64,000 nucleotides of DNA, taken from contig CALSNJ010000004.1 of the NCBI GenBank assembly GCA_943787745.1, positions 1-64,000 of the forward strand. Reading direction: 5' to 3'. Position 1 is the first letter of the stretch; each line of letters begins with the position of its first letter. This document shows, one piece after another, positions 20,397 through 39,889 of the stretch. The position numbers and the translations under genes were made by a program. The notes under the pieces are model-generated. The model was given only the letters and a program-made list of their open reading frames with translations, did no database searches and had not been told where the DNA came from. This DNA is from an uncultured Alphaproteobacteria bacterium. Lineage in GTDB: Bacteria > Pseudomonadota > Alphaproteobacteria > UBA6615.

Positions 20397-21722
20397 TCAG
20401 ACGTTACCAAATGCCGCACCAGACACCGGTTTTTGCGGCGCAAACCGCACATAAAGGTTACGCAAAGCAGTGTTTGGCGGATCAAATGACGGAAATGCGA
20501 CGATCTCGCTCTCGCAAAAAAGTGCCGGTAATGTTGCGCAAACATCCTTGGGAAGCCGCGAAAGTGGCTCAAAATCCGGAATCTGCCTGTAATTCGGCTT
20601 GGCTCTGCCCAGAGCATCCAGGGTCAGGCCCGTAACATCAAAACCCTGCGCGGACAGAACGAACCGACCATCCCACAGAACGCGTTCACCCGATGGAAAC
20701 GGCTGAGCCACAACCGCGACAGGTTCGCGCATCACACAAATTTTCCCGGTTCCTTCCGGGCGAATAATGCATCCTCCGAGCGTCCAGGCACGATCAACAC
20801 CCTTGGCGATCAGGCGCGCCCACAGGTTATCCAGACGGGTTCCGCGTGGCGGATAGACCCCCCCGGAGACGCTTGTCACAACATTGCCAAACAAATTACG
20901 GGAAACATCTGCATCAGCATCCTGAATGGCCTGCAGATCGATCATCGCAAAACCCGCCGGGTCGATACCCACAGCTGTTGCCGCCAGAATGGCCAACGCC
21001 TGCTCATGCAGCTTTCGCGTGGCACCGGCTTGCCGAATGTCTGCCATGGCGACAGCCGCGTCCCCCTGCGCCCGCATGCGCGCGCGTGCAAACCGGCCAT
21101 CCTGGTTGGACGGATCTTCCACCCAATCCTGCCCGGCCACCTGCAAGGTGGCCGTGATCCGGTCACGCGACACCCCCAGCAGTGGCCGCAAGACCCGCAC
21201 ATGTGTCATCTCCCGGACGGCCGCCATACCCGCAAGCCCAACCAACCCGCTTCCGCGCGCGCGGCGCATTTGGTGAGTTTCCTGCTGGTCGGCCTGATGG
21301 TGCCCAACGAGCAGATGCAGAATGCCATGTTCCTGGCAATAGGCCTCAAGCAATGCATAACGCGCATCCCGCGCTGCGGCCTCGATTCCGGTTTCATGTT
21401 CGGGTGTTTCCCAACACACAATCTGATGCGGAATATCGAGCTGCAGCATCCAGCATCCGACATGCGCCGCCTCATGCGCAGAATTCGAACGAAGCCCGTG
21501 ATCTATCGTAACAGCATGAACTGAACCGCCATGGGCCTTGGCCCAGTCTCTTGCAAGAATTGCCAGCGCCATGCTGTCGCGGCCGCCTGACACGGCGACA
21601 GCAATGCGCGGTGCGCTTTCAAACGGACCAAGCCGTTTCATCCATTGTTCGAATTCAGCGGCCAGAACTGGCGCAGAGTCTGGCCCGATAACAACCGGAC
21701 CGGCGTGGGCGCTTAGCCGCAC
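20397..21722 (-). CDS. tilS: tRNA(Ile)-lysidine synthetase
   Basis: It modifies C34 of the CAU-anticodon isoleucine tRNA with lysine, so that AUA is read as Ile. The PP-loop SGGRDSMALA is at about residue 45, followed by AVTIDHGLR and HHQADQQET. The C-terminal part, which contacts tRNA, is divergent. At 441 residues it is a normal alphaproteobacterial length. Its start overlaps the end of cpoB by 10 bases, keeping it in the cpoB-tilS-ftsH order. Confidence 0.95.
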   Translation of the reverse strand: MRLSAHAGPVVIGPDSAPVLAAEFEQWMKRLGPFESAPRIAVAVSGGRDSMALAILARDWAKAHGGSVHAVTIDHGLRSNSAHEAAHVGCWMLQLDIPHQIVCWETPEHETGIEAAARDARYALLEAYCQEHGILHLLVGHHQADQQETHQMRRARGSGLVGLAGMAAVREMTHVRVLRPLLGVSRDRITATLQVAGQDWVEDPSNQDGRFARARMRAQGDAAVAMADIRQAGATRKLHEQALAILAATAVGIDPAGFAMIDLQAIQDADADVSRNLFGNVVTSVSGGVYPPRGTRLDNLWARLIAKGVDRAWTLGGCIIRPEGTGKICVMREPVAVVAQPFPSGERVLWDGRFVLSAQGFDVTGLTLDALGRAKPNYRQIPDFEPLSRLPKDVCATLPALFCESEIVAFPSFDPPNTALRNLYVRFAPQKPVSGAAFGNV

Positions 21723-22690
21723 TTCAACCGACCAATTTCCCGGTCTGCGCGCTGAACGATGCTGGTCGGCGCTTCGGGATATTCAACACGAAGCTTTTTC
21801 AGGGTGATACAGGCATCGTCTTTCAGTTTGAGCTGGGACAGCGACATACCGAGCTTCAAAAGGTTGTCTGGGGCCTTTCCGCTGTCCGGGTAGCGTTGAA
21901 AACCTTCTGCAAAGGTCCGTGCCGCGGTCTGGTAATCGCCGCGGACATAGAACGTCTCGCCCAGCCAGTATTGGGCGTTTCCGGCAAGTGGATCTTCGGG
22001 GTGTGCACCAACAAAGGCGGCCAGCGCCGTCTCTGCACTTTCAAAGTCACGCTTCAAAAGAAACTGACGGGCATAACTGTACTGGTCCTGCGGGCTGCCT
22101 TCCGGAAGCTTGACCTCAGCCGATGTCTGACCGGCTGTCGCGGCGACAGGAGCTGCCCCGCCACTTGGCGTCACGCCGGCGGCACGGACCTGGCTTTCGG
22201 TCAGGGTCCCAATTGTGCCCGACGTATTGCCGCTGACCGTCACTTCGCCCGGCGATTGCGGAGCCGTAGGTGCGATAGGCTGGCCACCTCCTCGAGATGC
22301 CTGAGAAGGGCCCTTGCCGTCCTCAAGCTCGCGCAGTCGAAAGTCCACATCGGCAACCAGACGGTCCATCCGATCATTAAGCTGACGCACCTGAAACTCG
22401 AGCTTTTCAACCTGCCCGGTCAGGCGACGCATCTGCTCTTCAAGTGATTGGGATGTGATCTGCAGCTGGGAAATTGCAGCGGGCGGCGCTCCGCCGCCCG
22501 AGGATGGCCCACCAGCGGGCGGGGTCGCGCCCCGGTAAACTGTGCGCTCAAGCGTCTGAATCTGTCGTTCGAGACGGTCAACAGTATCTGCAAGGCTGCG
22601 GGGATCACTTGACTGGCCGATCGCCGCGCTCGGCAAGACCAGCGCAGCAATTGTAAGTGTCAGAGCAATTCGGCTACGAAAAATCTTCAT
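21713..22690 (-). CDS. cpoB: Tol-Pal system coordinator CpoB/YbgF
   Basis: This periplasmic protein links Tol-Pal constriction with peptidoglycan synthesis. From the ATG at 22690 it has 325 residues: a signal peptide (LVLPSAAIGQ), a long heptad coiled coil (about 30-115), a Gly/Pro/Ser linker, and C-terminal TPR repeats (QYSYARQFLLKRDFESAETAL; AQYWLGETFYVRGDYQTA). An ATG six codons upstream is less likely. A terminator-like hairpin lies between pal and cpoB, so it may have its own promoter. Confidence 0.94.
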   Translation of the reverse strand: MKIFRSRIALTLTIAALVLPSAAIGQSSDPRSLADTVDRLERQIQTLERTVYRGATPPAGGPSSGGGAPPAAISQLQITSQSLEEQMRRLTGQVEKLEFQVRQLNDRMDRLVADVDFRLRELEDGKGPSQASRGGGQPIAPTAPQSPGEVTVSGNTSGTIGTLTESQVRAAGVTPSGGAAPVAATAGQTSAEVKLPEGSPQDQYSYARQFLLKRDFESAETALAAFVGAHPEDPLAGNAQYWLGETFYVRGDYQTAARTFAEGFQRYPDSGKAPDNLLKLGMSLSQLKLKDDACITLKKLRVEYPEAPTSIVQRADREIGRLKCG

Positions 22691-29867: not shown

Positions 29868-30614
29868 TCAATCGGTCAGCTCAGCCATGACGTCATCGCT
29901 GACCTCAAAATTGGTCGCGACGCGTTGGACATCGTCATTGTCCTCGAGAACATCGATAAGTTTGAGAACAGTTCGCGCGGTATCCGCTGTCAGATCGACA
30001 GTGGTCTGCGGCTTCCAGTTGAGACCGGAAGCTTCCGGTGACCCGAATTTCGCATCCAGGGCGTCTGCAACCTGACCAAAATCGCCTGGTTCGCAGATGA
30101 CCTCGTGGGCGGATTCGCTGCTGGCCACATCCGAGGCGCCGGCTTCCAGTGCAGCTTCGAACATTTCATCCGTGCTCGCCGTGTCCGCGGGGTAAATCAC
30201 CTCGCCAACCTGATCGAACATAAAGGCCACGCTGTTCGTCTCGCCCAGGTTTCCGCCATGCTTGGCAAACGCCGAACGCACTTCGGAGGCTGTGCGGTTA
30301 CGATTGTCGGTCAGGGTTTCGACGATGACCGCAGTGCCGCCCGGGCCATAGCCCTCGTAGCGCACCTCTTCGTAGTTGTCGCCTTCACCGCCGCCGCTCG
30401 CCTTCTCAACGGCCCGCTTGATACGGTCGTTGGGCATGTTCTGACCACGCGCGGCCACAATGGCCGTCCGCAGGCGCGGGTTTTGATCAGGATCAGGACT
30501 GCTACGCGCAGCCACTTCGATCTCGCGCGCCAACTTGGCGAAGACTTTCGCCCGCTTGGCATCCTGCGCACCCTTGCGGTGCATGATGTTTTTAAATTGG
30601 GAATGGCCTGCCAT
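29868..30614 (-). CDS. YebC/PmpR-family protein
   Basis: A 248-residue TACO1/YebC-family protein with [23 protein letters not shown] at the N-terminus, [31 protein letters not shown] and an acidic middle region. Members act as transcription regulators or, as shown for YebC/TACO1, help translation of proline stretches. The usual position before ruvC holds here. Confidence 0.95.
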
Positions 30615-30742
30615 GCCCGCCCTCTCTTAGGTTGTCAGAAAACCCTGATTGCGCAAATACACTGCGAACCGGACATATATGCACACGGTTTAGCGGATTT
30701 TCGCCTGCGTCGAGAACCCCTGAATTCAGGGACCTGATGTGG
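30615..30742. other. Intergenic gap between yebC and the YmdB-like gene
   Basis: No ORF is seen. A 14-base perfect palindrome, CCCTGAATTCAGGG (30718-30731), lies just after the YmdB-like stop on the minus strand. It could be a weak terminator (5-bp stem, AATT loop), but it lacks a strong T-tract. Confidence 0.3.
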
Positions 30743-31585
30743 TCAAGTCGATGCAGCAGCACGCGGCGGCAGGAAATCCGGCCATGCCGGGCGCAGTCGT
30801 CCACCCAAAACCAATGGTGCCGCACGCAATGCGAGGCCCGTTTTGTCGTCCGTTTCGACATAAACGCCACACAATGTGGCCGGACCGGTTGCTGGCGACA
30901 GGCGCTCGGATACCAGCTTGCTGCGGAACCGCGCGACGGCGATGTCTTTCTTCATACCGATCACGGAATCATAGTCTCCACACATACCGGCATCGGACTG
31001 GAAGGCGGTTCCGCCTGGCAGCACTTGCGTGTCCGCCGTCGGAACATGAGTGTGGGTGCCAACCACCAGGCTGGCACGACCGTCACAGATATGTCCAAGC
31101 GCGGCCTTTTCCGACGTTGCTTCTCCATGAACATCGATCAGGACTGCATCCACGGCGGCACCGACCAGATGCGACTGGAGAACCCGGTCAACGGCGACAA
31201 AAGGGTCATCCAGCAATTCCATAAACAACCGGCACATGACATTCACGACGAGAACCTTCCGACCGTCGCGCGCCTGAATAACCGATGCACCCGCCCCCGG
31301 TGTGCCTTGCGTATAGTTCAGCGGGCGCAACACCCGCGGATTGGAATCGATATAGGAGACGATTTCGCGCTGATCCCAGACGTGATTGCCGGTGGTGATG
31401 GCGTCTGCGCCGGCCTCGAAAAGCTCGTCACATATCTTGCCAGTCAGTCCAAACCCGTGCGCCGCGTTCTCCGCATTGACGACAACAAAATCGAGACCAA
31501 GCTCCGTGCGAAGGCCGGGCAGGTTCTGGAGCACCACGTCACGCCCCGACCGGCCCACAAGATCTCCACAAAACAGAATTTTCAT
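30743..31585 (-). CDS. YmdB/TIGR00282-family metallophosphoesterase
   Basis: A 280-residue calcineurin-type phosphodiesterase with the family blocks GDLVGRSGRDVV (N-terminus), NAENAAHGFG, GNHVWDQRE, DVHGEATSEKAA and GTHTHVPTADTQVLPGGTAF. Bacillus YmdB hydrolyses 2',3'-cAMP-like cyclic nucleotides; the substrate here is unproven. It lies 9 bases after the 5-formyl-THF cyclo-ligase and is likely co-transcribed. Confidence 0.93.
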   Translation of the reverse strand: MKILFCGDLVGRSGRDVVLQNLPGLRTELGLDFVVVNAENAAHGFGLTGKICDELFEAGADAITTGNHVWDQREIVSYIDSNPRVLRPLNYTQGTPGAGASVIQARDGRKVLVVNVMCRLFMELLDDPFVAVDRVLQSHLVGAAVDAVLIDVHGEATSEKAALGHICDGRASLVVGTHTHVPTADTQVLPGGTAFQSDAGMCGDYDSVIGMKKDIAVARFRSKLVSERLSPATGPATLCGVYVETDDKTGLALRAAPLVLGGRLRPAWPDFLPPRAAAST

Positions 31586-31594
31586 ACCGATGTC

Positions 31595-32125
31595 CTATTC
31601 AGCTACGCGCAGCGCAGCAGATTCCGTCACAATCCAGTCGAGCCGCATATCATGCGGTCCGACAGGCAAGTCGTCGCGGACCTGACCCGAAAACGCAAGG
31701 CCCACAGTGGTAATCTCTTTTTCCGTGCGCAGTGCCGCGATGGTTCGGTCGTAATACCCGCCACCGTATCCGAGACGATGCCCGGCTCTATCAAAGGCCA
31801 GCATCGGAACCAGAAGCAGGTCAGGGCGCAAATGGTCCGCATCGCCGGATGGCACCCGAATGCCAAAGCTCCCCGTTTGCAGATCATCCCCGAAATCCCA
31901 GCGCCGAAAACTCAGCGGAGCGTCCGGCGTATTCGTATCCGGCAAACAAAGCGTGGAACCGCGCGCGGAGAGATGACGCATCAAAGTTCGTGGATCGATT
32001 TCGCTGCCGATAGGCATATATCCCGAAATTGATGTTCCGATCCCCGTCTGCGCCACAAGTTCGGCTGTAGACATGAAGCGCGCGGCAACGCCGGCAGCCG
32101 CGGCGGCGCCCAGCCCCGACGACAA
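31595..32125 (-). CDS. 5-formyltetrahydrofolate cyclo-ligase, start uncertain
   Basis: It converts 5-formyl-THF to 5,10-methenyl-THF with ATP. The GGGYYDR motif and the LLLVPMLAFDRAGHRLGYG region are clear. The interval given begins at TTG (32125), the first accepted start codon. However, the frame continues upstream with a conserved Lys/Arg-rich segment (DLDKSRIRSAARADRDALSS) that aligns with the ATP-binding N-terminus of the family. It runs to a TAG at 32258-32260 with no ATG, GTG, TTG or CTG. An ATC at 32200, 8 bases after AAGG, is the best start candidate. It lies downstream of the 6S RNA. Confidence 0.88.
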   Translation of the reverse strand: MSSGLGAAAAAGVAARFMSTAELVAQTGIGTSISGYMPIGSEIDPRTLMRHLSARGSTLCLPDTNTPDAPLSFRRWDFGDDLQTGSFGIRVPSGDADHLRPDLLLVPMLAFDRAGHRLGYGGGYYDRTIAALRTEKEITTVGLAFSGQVRDDLPVGPHDMRLDWIVTESAALRVAE

Positions 32126-32231
32126 TGCATCCCGGTCCGCACGCGCGGCTGAACGAATGCGTGACTTATCGAGATCGATATCGGAGGGCGTCTCGGTGAT
32201 GACAGAAACCTTGAACTCGGAGAGAGGAAAG

Positions 32232-32403
32232 AGTGGACGGCGCCAGGTGAAGGTTGGCTAACGGGAAGTCCACCGAGACCTGCTAAGTGCAGGTGGGCAC
32301 CATATACCGAGGCCAGGACCCCGGCAGGGACAGTTCCCTAGTGGATTAGTAAGGTCTCCAGGACTAGTTGCCGCCTCACGCGGCACCCAGCAGACCGTCC
32401 ACC
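32232..32403 (-). ncRNA. ssrS: 6S RNA
   Basis: The RNA lies between zapA and 5-FCL on the same strand, the standard proteobacterial ssrS position. A 9-bp closing stem pairs 32395-32403 with 32232-32240 (GGUGGACGG with CCGUCCACU). Inside are hairpins TGCCGC/GCGGCA and ACCTGC/GCAGGT and a long imperfect central arm. The 172-nt size fits 6S RNA, which mimics an open promoter and binds sigma-70 polymerase. The exact ends are estimated, and the strand is inferred from synteny. Confidence 0.8.
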
Positions 32404-32470
32404 CATGAAGGTAGGCGCGCACAGGTCCGCCCGCAACTCCTCACAATCACTTCTTTAAGAGAGTTGAATT

Positions 32471-32812
32471 TCAGCTGGCCGCGAGCGCACTCGCAACCTT
32501 CTCGATCCGGGTGGCCAGTGCATCGATCTGCGCGGCTAGTTTGTCTTCGGTATTGTCGATTGCAGACTGCGTGTCACGAGCAGCCTGATTGCGCGCATCT
32601 TCGATCTCTTCACGCAGATCCGACAATTCATCCGTGACCAGCAAACCCGCCATCACCATCAAGCTTGTGTCGCCAATCTGGCCGACTTCTTTGACGAGTT
32701 CGCCAACCTTGCCATCGAGATACTTCGCCAAACTTGAAAGATGGGATTCCTGACCATCCTCACAAGCGATGCGATAGTCACGTCCGTTGATCTTGATCTC
32801 GACCTGAGCCAA
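32471..32812 (-). CDS. zapA: Cell-division protein ZapA
   Basis: ZapA bundles FtsZ filaments. The 113-residue protein has the N-terminal globular part (MAQVEIKINGRDYRIACEDGQE...LAKYLDGKV) and a C-terminal coiled coil (LSDLREEIEDARNQAARDT). The stop is 67 bases from the 5' end of 6S RNA. The DUF4164-like gene lies 12 bases upstream, so the two are probably a unit. Confidence 0.95.
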   Translation of the reverse strand: MAQVEIKINGRDYRIACEDGQESHLSSLAKYLDGKVGELVKEVGQIGDTSLMVMAGLLVTDELSDLREEIEDARNQAARDTQSAIDNTEDKLAAQIDALATRIEKVASALAAS

Positions 32813-32824
32813 AGCGTATCCCCG

Positions 32825-33067
32825 TTATTCGTCGAGCATGTTTCGCAAACGCCCGATCGCGTCGTCAAGGCGCGACGAAACGGTGCCTGACGTGTCACGA
32901 AGCGTCGTAAAATCGGCGCGCAACTTGTCGAGCTCGGCCTGCAACTCATTCGCCTGCCCGTCCGCTGTCTGGGACGGCACTTCATTGTTCCGCCGCAACT
33001 CAACGGCCTGCTCAAGGCTGGCCATCGCCGCGTCGAGACGATCATTGGCTTCGTTCAGTTTTGACAT
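32825..33067 (-). CDS. Small coiled-coil protein (DUF4164-like)
   Basis: The 80-residue protein from the ATG at 33067 is a helical coiled coil: SKLNEANDRLDAAMASLEQAVELRR, then a short break, then ELQAELDKLRADFTTLRDTSG and RLDDAIGRLRNML. It sits directly upstream of zapA, as DUF4164 proteins often do in Alphaproteobacteria. A role near the divisome is inferred from location only. Upstream Met codons in the frame are within the intergenic region and lack family-like residues. Confidence 0.8.
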   Translation of the reverse strand: MSKLNEANDRLDAAMASLEQAVELRRNNEVPSQTADGQANELQAELDKLRADFTTLRDTSGTVSSRLDDAIGRLRNMLDE

Positions 33068-33281
33068 TCGTCGCGTCTCCGATTGCGCGCATCGTACGCG
33101 CGGGCGAGTCGCGCGGTCAACCGAGGGGTCATCCTGAAAGCCCCGGATTCCGTCGGTGGAAAACCCTTCGAAACAGGCGTTGACGCCCTGCAGAGGGAAC
33201 GGCATGTTTCCGCCGCGCAACGATCCGCGCGAATCCTCGTTCCGTCATTCAATCGCCCGCCCGAAAGGCGTCAGACGCACC
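33068..33281. other. Divergent promoter region between the zapA unit and transketolase
   Basis: The 214-base gap separates the two divergent units, so promoters for both should lie here. The frames that stay open through it have no good ribosome-binding site. I see no strong hairpin or repeat. Confidence 0.3.
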
Positions 33282-35273
33282 ATGAACGCAGCCACTTCTT
33301 CTGCCGAACACAACCAGTTGGCAAATGCCATCCGCGCCCTTTCCATGGACGCAGTCCAGCAAGCCAATTCCGGCCACCCCGGCGCCCCGATGGGCATGGC
33401 CGATATGGCCACGGTTCTCTTTACGCGCCATCTGAAATTCGATGCCGCCAACCCGGACTGGGCCGACCGCGACCGTTTCGTACTTTCGAATGGTCATGCT
33501 TCAATGCTTCTCTATTCGTTGCTCTATCTCGCGGGTTCCCCGGATATGACGCTCGACGAGATCAAAAACTTCCGTCAGCTCGGCAGCAAAACGCCGGGAC
33601 ATCCCGAATATGGGCACGCAGCTGGCGTGGAAACGACGACCGGTCCGCTGGGTCAGGGTATCGCCAACGCCGTGGGCATGGCACTTGCTGAGCGCATGAT
33701 GAATGCGCGCTACGGCGATGATCTGGTTGATCATCACACCTATGTCTTTGCTGGCGATGGCTGCCTGATGGAGGGAATCAGCCATGAAGCAATCTCTCTG
33801 GCGGGTCATCTCAAACTCGACCGTCTGATTGTCCTGTTTGATGACAATGATATCTCCATCGACGGCAGCACGGATCTGTCGGTCTCTGACGACCAGCTCG
33901 CACGCTTCAAAGCCAGTGGGTGGGATGTCGCACGCATTGATGGCCACGATCCCGAAGCCATTGATCAGGCCATCGCGGCCGCAAAAGCCACCGACACACC
34001 ATCACTGATCGCGTGCCGCACCGTGATCGGATATGGCGCCCCGTCCAAGCAGGGCACCTCTGCCACCCACGGCGCGCCGTTGGGTGACGAGGAAATCGCC
34101 GGCACCCGCGAGGCGTTGAATTGGCCCCATGCACCGTTTGAAATTCCCGACGATATCCTCAACACATGGCGCGCAGCCGGTTCCCGCGGTGCGGCAGACC
34201 GCATCGCCTGGGAAAACCGTCTTGGTGCTGCTGACGCTGATCAGCGCGATGCATTCCTGACAGCCAATAGCGGCGCACTTCCCGCCGAGTTTAAAGACGT
34301 GGTCAACGCCCACAAGAAAAAGCTGAGCGAAGAGCTCCCCAAAGTGGCGACACGTGTTTCCAGCCAGCAGGCGCTGGATGCCATCGCGCCGGTGGTTGAA
34401 ACCATGATTGGCGGCTCGGCCGATCTGACAGGCTCGAACAACACAAAAGCCGCGTGCATGGCGCCAATTTCGGCCAATGATTTCAGTGGTCGCTACATCT
34501 ATTACGGCGTGCGCGAACACGGCATGGCTGCTGCGATGAACGGCATGGCACTGCATGGCGGATTTATCCCCTATTCGGGCACCTTCCTGACCTTCACCGA
34601 TTACTGCCGCCCCTCGATCCGCCTTTCGGCGCTGATGGGAATTCGCGTGATCTATGTGATGACCCATGATTCCATCGGCCTTGGCGAAGACGGCCCGACC
34701 CATCAGCCGGTCGAGCATGTGGCCAGTCTGCGCGCGATGCCCAACGTCAATGTGTTCCGCCCTGCGGATGCCGTTGAGACCGCCGAATGCTGGGCGCTGG
34801 CACTGCAGAATGAAGGCACACCTTCCGTTCTCGCGCTTACGCGCCAGGGTCTGCCAACAGTCCGCACCGAACACACCGACGAAAACCTCAGCGCGCGTGG
34901 CGGCTATGTGCTGCGCGAGGCGGATGGCGATCGTGCGGCCACGATCCTTGCGACCGGCTCTGAAATCGAACTCGCGCTGCAAGCTCGTGACACGCTGCAG
35001 GCCAATGGCATTCCCACAGCAGTTGTTTCCATGCCGTGCTGGGAATTGTTCGATGCCCAGGACGAGGCTTACCGCACAGCCACACTCGGAGACGGCGTTC
35101 GTGTTGCCGTTGAAGCCGGCGTGACTTTTGGCTGGGCACGCTATGGTGTTGCGGAAGGCAATATCGTAGGCATGCCAGGCTTTGGTGCATCAGCACCGGC
35201 CCCGCAAGTATACAAACATTTCGGAATCACGGCGGATGCCGTGGTTGACCGCGTCACGTCAGCAATCTGCTGA
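33282..35273 (+). CDS. tkt: Transketolase
   Basis: A TPP enzyme moving two-carbon units in the pentose-phosphate and, if present, Calvin cycles. The ATG at 33282 gives 663 residues. [11 protein letters not shown] is at about 31-41, the TPP-binding [13 protein letters not shown] near 152, and the pyrimidine-domain [10 protein letters not shown] near 430. [18 protein letters not shown] near 465 holds catalytic His. It is the first of a plus-strand central-carbon run, followed by GAPDH. Confidence 0.97.
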
Positions 35274-38273: not shown

Positions 38274-39194
38274 ATGAAAGTCACGCAGCGCGTCCGCAAA
38301 ATCCTGTCCTGGTATGAAAGCGACAACCCGGGCACAAAAACAAATCTCGCCCGCATCCTGATGACCGGCAAGCTGGCCGGCACCGGCAAGATGGTGATCC
38401 TGCCTGTTGATCAGGGCTGGGAGCATGGGCCCGCCCGAAGCTTTGCGGCAAACCCAGTGGCCTACGACCCTCACTACTTCCCACAGCTTGCCATCGATGC
38501 CGGCCTGAATGCCTATGCGGCCCCGCTGGGGCAGATCGAGGCTGCCGCCGATAGCTATGCTGGATCGGTGCCGTTGATTTTGAAGATGAATTCTTCGAAT
38601 TCCCACGCGGTCTCCAAAGATCAGGCCATCACCAGTTCGGTGGGCGATGCGCTGCGCCTTGGTTGCACAGCCGTTGGCTTTACGATCTATCCCGGCTCCG
38701 AACAGCAGTTCGAGATGATCGAGGAAATTCGCGAGATCACCGAAGAAGCAAAGTCGGTAGGTCTGGCGGTTGTGATCTGGTCCTACCCACGCGGTGGCGA
38801 CCTCTCAAAGGACGGCGAGACCGCGATTGATGTCACCGCCTATGCCGCTCACATGGCCGCGCAGCTTGGTGCCAATATCATTAAGGTCAAACCGCCAACG
38901 GACTTCATTGAGAGCAAGGATGCGCAGAAAGTCTATGACGCGGAAAAGATCGACATTTCGTCACTGGCCAAGCGCATTGAACACATCATGGAATCTTCCT
39001 TTGGCGGTCGCCGGTTGGTTGTCTTCTCTGGTGGTGCGGCCAAGGGCACGGATGCGATTTTCGAAGAAATTCGTCAGCTGCGCGACGGCGGTGCCAACGG
39101 CTCCATCATCGGGCGCAACAGCTTCCAGCGCTCGCGTGAAGATGCGCTCGAACTGTTGAGCAACATCATCAAAATTTATCAGGGTAAATTCTGA
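38274..39194 (+). CDS. fbaB: Class I fructose-bisphosphate aldolase (archaeal/DhnA type)
   Basis: It cleaves or forms fructose-1,6-bisphosphate through a Schiff base. The 306-residue protein has [15 protein letters not shown] near residue 42, the Schiff-base lysine region [11 protein letters not shown] near 201, and the phosphate-binding [12 protein letters not shown] and [14 protein letters not shown] segments. It begins the short block aldolase-thiE-like-efp. The stop overlaps the putative CTG start of the next gene. Confidence 0.95.
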
Positions 39195-39889
39195 TCGCAG
39201 ATTCAGCCAAAGGCGCAGCGGAAATTCCGCAATGCCGCCTGTACCTGATCAGCCCGTCCAACCTCGAAGGTGATCGCCTCGACAAGTTTGCACACGCGCT
39301 TGAAGAGGCGCTTGCAGCAGGCGATGTGGCCTGTCTGCAATTACGCCTCAAGGGTGCGGATGAATCGCCTGCCGATGATGCCGAAATCCAGCGGGCCGCC
39401 GCTGCATTGATGCCGGTCACACAAAAGCATGACGTGGCGTTCATCCTGAACGACCGACCTGACCTCGCCGCCGAGCTGGGTTGTGATGGTGTGCATGTTG
39501 GTCAGGAAGACGCCCCCTATGACGAGGGACGACGGTTGCTTGGCAGCAAGGCCATTGTGGGCGTGACCTGTCACGATTCACGCCATCTTGCGATGGCCGC
39601 CGCCGAAGCTGGGGCCGACTATGTGGCATTTGGTGCGTTCTTTCCCACTACCACAAAAACTCCGAAATTCCAGACCCGGCCCGATATCCTGAAATGGTGG
39701 TCGGACATCATGGAAGTCCCCAGCGTGGCGATTGGCGGAATCACGGTAGAAAACTGCGCGTCACTGATCTCTGCCGGAGCAGACTTCCTGGCCGTATCAG
39801 CCGGCGTCTGGGCGCATCCGAAGGGACCGGGCGCCGCCGTACGGGCCTTCAACGAGGCTTTCGAGAACACAGCCCGCGACCCGGGGTAG
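39191..39889 (+). CDS. Thiamine-phosphate synthase family protein, probable CTG start
   Basis: A ThiE/TenI-type TIM barrel: [16 protein letters not shown] (the family QLR.K site), [39 protein letters not shown] and [11 protein letters not shown]. The conserved first strand and helix lie upstream of the first accepted codon (GTG 39326). The frame is open back to a TAA at 39185 with only ATT (39188) and CTG (39191). CTG, 6 bases after AGGG and overlapping the aldolase stop, is chosen and gives 232 residues. It may be a genuine ThiE or a TenI-like relative; the catalytic set looks complete enough for ThiE. Confidence 0.82.

Follow-up and report, generated by a model that had tools for sequence, protein, structure and literature searches.

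The 5-FCL reading frame and its candidate start

The question raised by this locus is where translation of the folate-recycling enzyme 5-formyltetrahydrofolate cyclo-ligase (5-FCL) begins, in a frame whose conserved domain starts ahead of any standard start codon. In the window (the whole stretch of 64,000 nucleotides that was analysed), the minus strand carries zapA, 6S RNA, 5-FCL and a YmdB-like gene, in that order, and the 5-FCL frame opens after an in-frame TAG (32260-32258) and closes with the stop at 31595. The earlier note on this DNA had reported no ATG, GTG, TTG or CTG between this TAG and a TTG at 32125, and had named an ATC at 32200, preceded by AAGG at a distance of eight bases, as the best candidate. 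The count holds, with none of these codons present among the 44, and the ATC (32200-32198) and the AAGG (32212-32209) lie where that note had placed them. The features of the locus are as follows.

31595..32200 (-): 5-FCL coding sequence read from the proposed AUC, 201 amino acids plus stop
32198..32200 (-): proposed AUC start codon; ATC or ATT here in 19/24 family genomes, the 16 nearest all sharing the A and T
32209..32212 (-): Shine-Dalgarno-like AAGG, 8 bases from the AUC
32165..32167 (-): conserved Lys codon, at which the PF01812 match starts
32258..32260 (-): upstream in-frame TAG, read from the sequence
32123..32125 (-): TTG, first of the standard codons; lies inside the conserved domain, is not kept as a codon and was rejected as the start
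32237..32396 (-): 6S RNA directly upstream of 5-FCL; RF00013 match of 27.1 bits (E 0.0016), short of the gathering score of 46.4
32471..32812 (-): zapA, a control gene with a standard start
30743..31585 (-): YmdB-like gene, a control gene with a standard start

Assignment of the frame to 5-FCL is given by a full-length PF01812 domain (117.1 bits against a cut-off of 27, E 1.1e-33), in which residues 12-193 of the ATC reading match profile positions 1-186 of 186. As this match begins upstream of the TTG at 32125, a start at that TTG would remove the first part of the domain. No phmmer alignment to a 5-FCL of known structure reaches further towards the N-terminus than residue 55, and these alignments are uninformative on this end of the protein. 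For random codons, the chance of a start-free stretch of 44 codons in one genome is approximately (60/64)^44 = 0.06, so that the stretch is unremarkable in a single genome and the case rests on the relatives.

Start codons across the family and their descent

A 5-FCL gene was found in all 24 of the family genomes compared, and a search of the order gave the same 24. The codon at the aligned ATC position is ATC in 16 (loci L001-L005, L007-L011, L013-L016, L113 and L114), ATT in three (L006, L012 and L027), ATG in three (L018, L019 and L112) and GTG in two (L017 and L115). Comparison of this interval in relatives, which had been proposed as a check, thus gives ATC or ATT at the same aligned codon in 19 of the 24. 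A tree was built from the joined 5-FCL, YmdB and ZapA sequences, with eight outgroups; it includes 5-FCL itself, and YmdB or ZapA was truncated or missing at a few loci. In this tree the 19 ATC/ATT genes form one clade with a support of 100, and the ATG and GTG members of the family lie outside it. Parsimony within the clade gives three changes, all from ATC to ATT and none back to ATG, GTG or TTG, with a tree length of 4.1 amino acid substitutions per site. The simplest reading is that an AUC/AUU start of 5-FCL would have had a single origin and been retained afterwards. The clade includes genus g2 (L027, L113 and L114), whose 5-FCL is only 36-41% identical to the window protein and whose loci have ATC or ATT with an in-frame stop six codons upstream. 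A working 5-FCL gene can dispense with the rare start, since five family genomes have ATG or GTG.

The aligned ATC/ATT is the sole position at which every one of the 19 clade members has a possible start codon, which bears out the ATC at 32200 as the best candidate. No ATG, GTG or TTG occurs from the in-frame stop to the conserved Lys in 13 of the 19 (the window and 12 other members), and even when ATG, GTG, TTG, CTG, ATT, ATC and ATA are all admitted, L007, L016 and L114 offer no candidate but the AUC. The sole standard codon in L006 and L012 is a GTG 24 codons upstream, apparently inside the 6S stretch, and in four members (L002, L003, L011 and L013) a standard codon lies closer to the AUC, namely an ATG at +7, a TTG at +3 or a GTG at -3 codons. 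A second AUC or AUU lies seven codons downstream of the first in 10 of 19. A start in another frame or a frameshift was also considered and rejected, as the commonest ATG/GTG/TTG offset between -45 and +36 is common to just 6 of 19. Two family genomes, G005 and G009, each gave an additional weak match, to the C-terminal region of 5-FCL (L116 and L117, E ~1e-4).

Conservation around the codon was compared in the 16 nearest genomes. All 16 have A and T as the first two bases of the start codon, followed by C in 14 and by T in the other 2; at the 12 upstream positions the most frequent base reaches 31 to 81%. Two nearby bases equal the AU in conservation, the third base of codon 2 (C in 16/16) and the base that follows it (G in 15/16). 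A Shine-Dalgarno-like match ends 4 to 8 bases before the AUC/AUU. In 13 of the 19 members this match is 4 to 6 bases long, at a distance of 5 to 8 bases (a count made without a shuffle control); the other six (L003-L005, L027, L113 and L114) have only 3 matching bases, a length that chance could produce. The five ATG/GTG genes of the family have a match of 4 bases in one case, 3 bases in two and none in two. The aligned starts of the neighbouring control genes are ATG, GTG or TTG throughout, in 22/22 loci where zapA was found (it is absent from the L013 and L014 results) and in 24/24 for ymdB.

The codons after the AUC behave as coding sequence, with third positions differing most and amino acid changes common. 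Amino-acid-changing codon differences outnumber silent ones over the first 24 codons, by 89 to 58 among five members of the genus and by 29 to 27 among four of the sister genus, which indicates that the N-terminal segment of 5-FCL is loosely constrained. Third positions account for 106 of 217 base differences in this segment in the former set and for 37 of 63 in the latter.

Two accounts would dispense with the AUC. Translation could begin at a standard codon, the TTG at 32125 in the window and other codons elsewhere, giving a protein that lacks the N-terminal segment; this TTG is the first codon acceptable to a gene finder, and the loose constraint on the segment would suit such a start. The Pfam domain nevertheless begins upstream of the TTG, the third codon positions of the segment vary most, and the TTG is not conserved (3 of the 16 nearest genomes have it, and the rest CTG, CTT, CTC or CCG), which makes this account very improbable. 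A sequencing error or a decaying gene might be suspected because most of the family genomes are drafts of many contigs; error fails as an explanation since the feature recurs in independently assembled genomes from five genera (g1, g2, g5, g7 and g9), with AUC or AUU in 19 genomes, and decay is opposed by matches free of internal stops, so that the chance left to either is practically negligible. The AUC is supported by where it lies, by how well it is conserved and by the lack of other starts, and we hold with high confidence that AUC 32200 is the 5-FCL start, as judged from these alignments.

Proposed initiation at the AUC: tRNA, IF3 and 6S RNA

We propose that 5-FCL is translated from the AUC at 32200 by the ordinary CAU initiator tRNA, with the third codon base mismatched, and that the protein would begin fMet-TETPSDIDLDKSRIR. 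The AUC would be a weak start, rejected by IF3 as at infC, and would hold down 5-FCL synthesis from a transcript of which 6S RNA is probably the first part. Being weak and IF3-rejected, such a start would give little 5-FCL, and its translation would be predicted to increase under IF3 limitation or reduced initiation fidelity. Taken as a whole (AUC start, IF3 discrimination and low 5-FCL output), this explanation is probably correct. Discrimination by IF3 against the 5-FCL AUC is a reasoned expectation from analogy that we consider likely, and we are evenly divided on whether start-codon control of 5-FCL would have a physiological role. Co-transcription with 6S RNA at this locus, IF3 discrimination, low output and a physiological purpose are all steps that we infer.

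An initiator tRNA that reads AUC was considered for the window's genome and rejected, as its initiator (L173) has the anticodon CAT. A pattern search for an AUC-reading initiator found none, and a looser pattern matched 8 places, of which ARAGORN called none a tRNA; all 47 matches to RF00005 in this genome are covered by ARAGORN. The anticodon GAT occurs only in a tRNA-Ile beside a tRNA-Ala, which we take to be an elongator, judged by its stem. In the L173 initiator, A29:U41 replaces the first of three G:C pairs, which is not special, because tRNAs 100% identical to it occur in two other alphaproteobacterial genomes (G051 and G056). With an ordinary CAU initiator in the window's genome, the AUC would pair with a third-base mismatch. 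Initiator searches in several family genomes gave weak matches or none. The window's genome also has a second, degenerate initiator-like tRNA with CAT (L194, G000:C2:979404-979477 (-)), scored at 37 bits and shortened near the D arm.

Experimentally characterised non-standard start codons of bacteria are described as very few, and IF3 represses such starts; infC itself starts at ATT in E. coli and at ATC in Streptomyces, where sigR begins with GTC under IF3 control (PMC5472188). In the present family, the aligned infC start is ATC in all 22 genomes where the gene was found (loci L118-L140), and the infC search gave no match in G008 and G016. At L131, L134, L137 and L138, this ATC directly follows the in-frame stop after GGAGATAG. 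One genome carries a second, diverged IF3-like gene (L126, G020:C6) of 41% identity; its aligned start is ATT, and an ATG follows six codons later. A conserved near-cognate AUU/AUC start is thus common to infC and, as we read it, to 5-FCL. The latter differs in being another gene of another pathway, outside IF3 self-regulation, and in that its AUC/AUU is confined to one clade among the loci examined. The likeness to sigR is that of a non-infC gene kept low via a non-standard start, as 5-FCL would be; the codon differs (GTC), and the IF3 effect is experimental in sigR and inferred for 5-FCL (PMC5472188).

The arrangement upstream of the gene also has a known counterpart. A search of 30500-33500 with Rfam at the gathering score gave no match; among eight family loci searched with RF00013, three have a match immediately before 5-FCL that exceeds this score, and five do not. 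The operon of 6S RNA and 5-FCL is reported to be conserved, and ssrS-ygfA is a dicistronic transcript in E. coli (PMC7641849). The order zapA, 6S RNA, 5-FCL is the same in the window and at E. coli ssrS-ygfA (fau). E. coli fau was also considered as a parallel for the start, as its annotated start leaves out an upstream segment, and was set aside: fau has an in-frame ATG 18 codons before the annotated start, which makes a non-standard start unnecessary there, whereas the window lacks such an ATG. A further gene comparable to 5-FCL as predicted here is the low-output E. coli pcnB with its AUU start; to our knowledge the two have no sequence relation.

Other possible non-standard starts and the proposed role of the AUC

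A screen for conserved sequence ahead of the first standard codon compared 62 ORFs of the window with stretches from as many as four relatives. At least 8 aligned residues upstream of that codon were found for 24 of the 62 (ten rows inspected), and thiE is the clear case, with 31 to 46 residues at 58 to 65% identity in three genomes. For ORF 20397-21782, too, the upstream block equals the body in conservation in three genomes, but this block falls within the overlap with a neighbouring ORF. For 5-FCL the identities are 33 to 50% upstream versus 54 to 68% in the body, which means that the screen is insensitive and alone could not single out 5-FCL. A similar screen of 66 ORFs in G001 reported six, of which thiE alone was found with all three comparators; two further ORFs among those reported are L334:18148 and L335:10902. 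The absence of 5-FCL there is explained by the TTG that G001 has three codons after the AUC.

39188-39889 (+): thiE; PF02581 match from residue 18, CTG at 39191

In thiE, no ATG, GTG or TTG occurs before codon 46, which falls inside the domain. The CTG, placed where the preceding aldolase gene ends (a CTGA overlap in g5), is present in 15 of 24 family genomes, and in 11 of these 15 no standard codon lies between the CTG and the domain in the stretch inspected. The remaining nine genomes have CTA or other codons, six of them with ATG, GTG or TTG starts. From this arrangement thiE probably starts at a CUG coupled to the aldolase gene. The thiE matches in G022 and G020 contain one stop each.

The conserved thiE CUG shows what is probably a non-AUG start in the lineage outside any known IF3 link, which counts against the IF3 reading. 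It would also favour a lineage generally lax on start codons, in which 5-FCL is one harmless case, as would the ATT at the aligned start of the diverged second IF3 copy in G020. Set against such laxity, the window screen, insensitive as it is, gave only thiE with a long block near body identity among its 62 ORFs (20397-21782 being an overlap), and the initiator tRNA is identical to those of two other alphaproteobacterial genomes; we consider this explanation quite unlikely.

Within the proposed AUC start, its purpose can be read in three ways, as a brake, as a response to the state of IF3 or as a loop with folate. The AUC may be no more than a constant brake on a gene expressed from the 6S transcript, sensing neither IF3 nor formyl-folate. 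The position of 5-FCL directly behind 6S RNA, the dicistronic ssrS-ygfA of E. coli (PMC7641849) and the interchange of AUC and AUU, which a brake would permit, are consistent with this; yet a weak Shine-Dalgarno sequence or a UUG could brake too, and AU[C/U] has been kept in 19 genomes with no reversion. We give this form of the proposal somewhat less than an even chance. The loop is one in which low formyl-folate would lower initiator formylation and initiation fidelity, more AUC-started 5-FCL would be made and stored 5-formyl-folate would be released. 5-FCL feeds the pool that yields 10-formyl-THF for initiator formylation. That supply, together with the effect of one-carbon supply on initiation fidelity in E. 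coli (PMC7949028), makes the loop conceivable, and it is further favoured by the type of start common to infC and 5-FCL and by the role of 5-formyl-THF as a storage form (PMC7641849). The statements of PMC7949028 used here concern the selection of initiator tRNA and not AUC codons, and thiE with its CUG does not fit, so we regard the loop as doubtful. That 5-FCL would stand beside infC as an IF3-sensed set in this order, with the AUC coupling the release of stored 5-formyl-folate, and through it the formyl supply of initiator tRNA, to the state of initiation, is likewise doubtful.

Under the preferred reading, the predicted AUC start of 5-FCL points to translational control of this enzyme. As read from the aligned genomes, 5-FCL joins the few bacterial genes that have a near-cognate start, with a conserved putative AUC/AUU on a metabolic gene. 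Among the matches listed in a search of open-licence literature (titles and abstract openings), none described a non-standard start of 5-FCL. A survey of 36 genome groups counted 1 AUG-to-AUU switch among 61,358 ancestral AUG starts (PMC5622118), and such switches are rare; the metabolic gene 5-FCL has kept AUC/AUU across the whole clade. Gene finders limited to ATG, GTG and TTG would be expected to cut the window 5-FCL past the conserved Lys. If IF3 senses the 5-FCL start, a testable link would exist between folate metabolism and initiation control.

Finally, 194 5-FCL loci outside the family were scored, with some genomes entering twice and L031 (the L006 contig) left out. A standard codon lies within 25 codons of the motif in 178 of the 194, seven were flagged and nine had no motif. 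Ten of the flagged or motif-free loci were inspected, together with five other loci; L098 is cut by a contig end, and L253 has an ATG slightly further upstream. In another alphaproteobacterial family, represented by the two genomes of L230 and L241 (G142 and G237), an ATA lies at a similar distance from the Lys with a Shine-Dalgarno-like AGG or GAGGT upstream, and L230 also has an ATG four codons upstream. An AUA start of 5-FCL is possible in L241 and its congener L230, judging from these codons.
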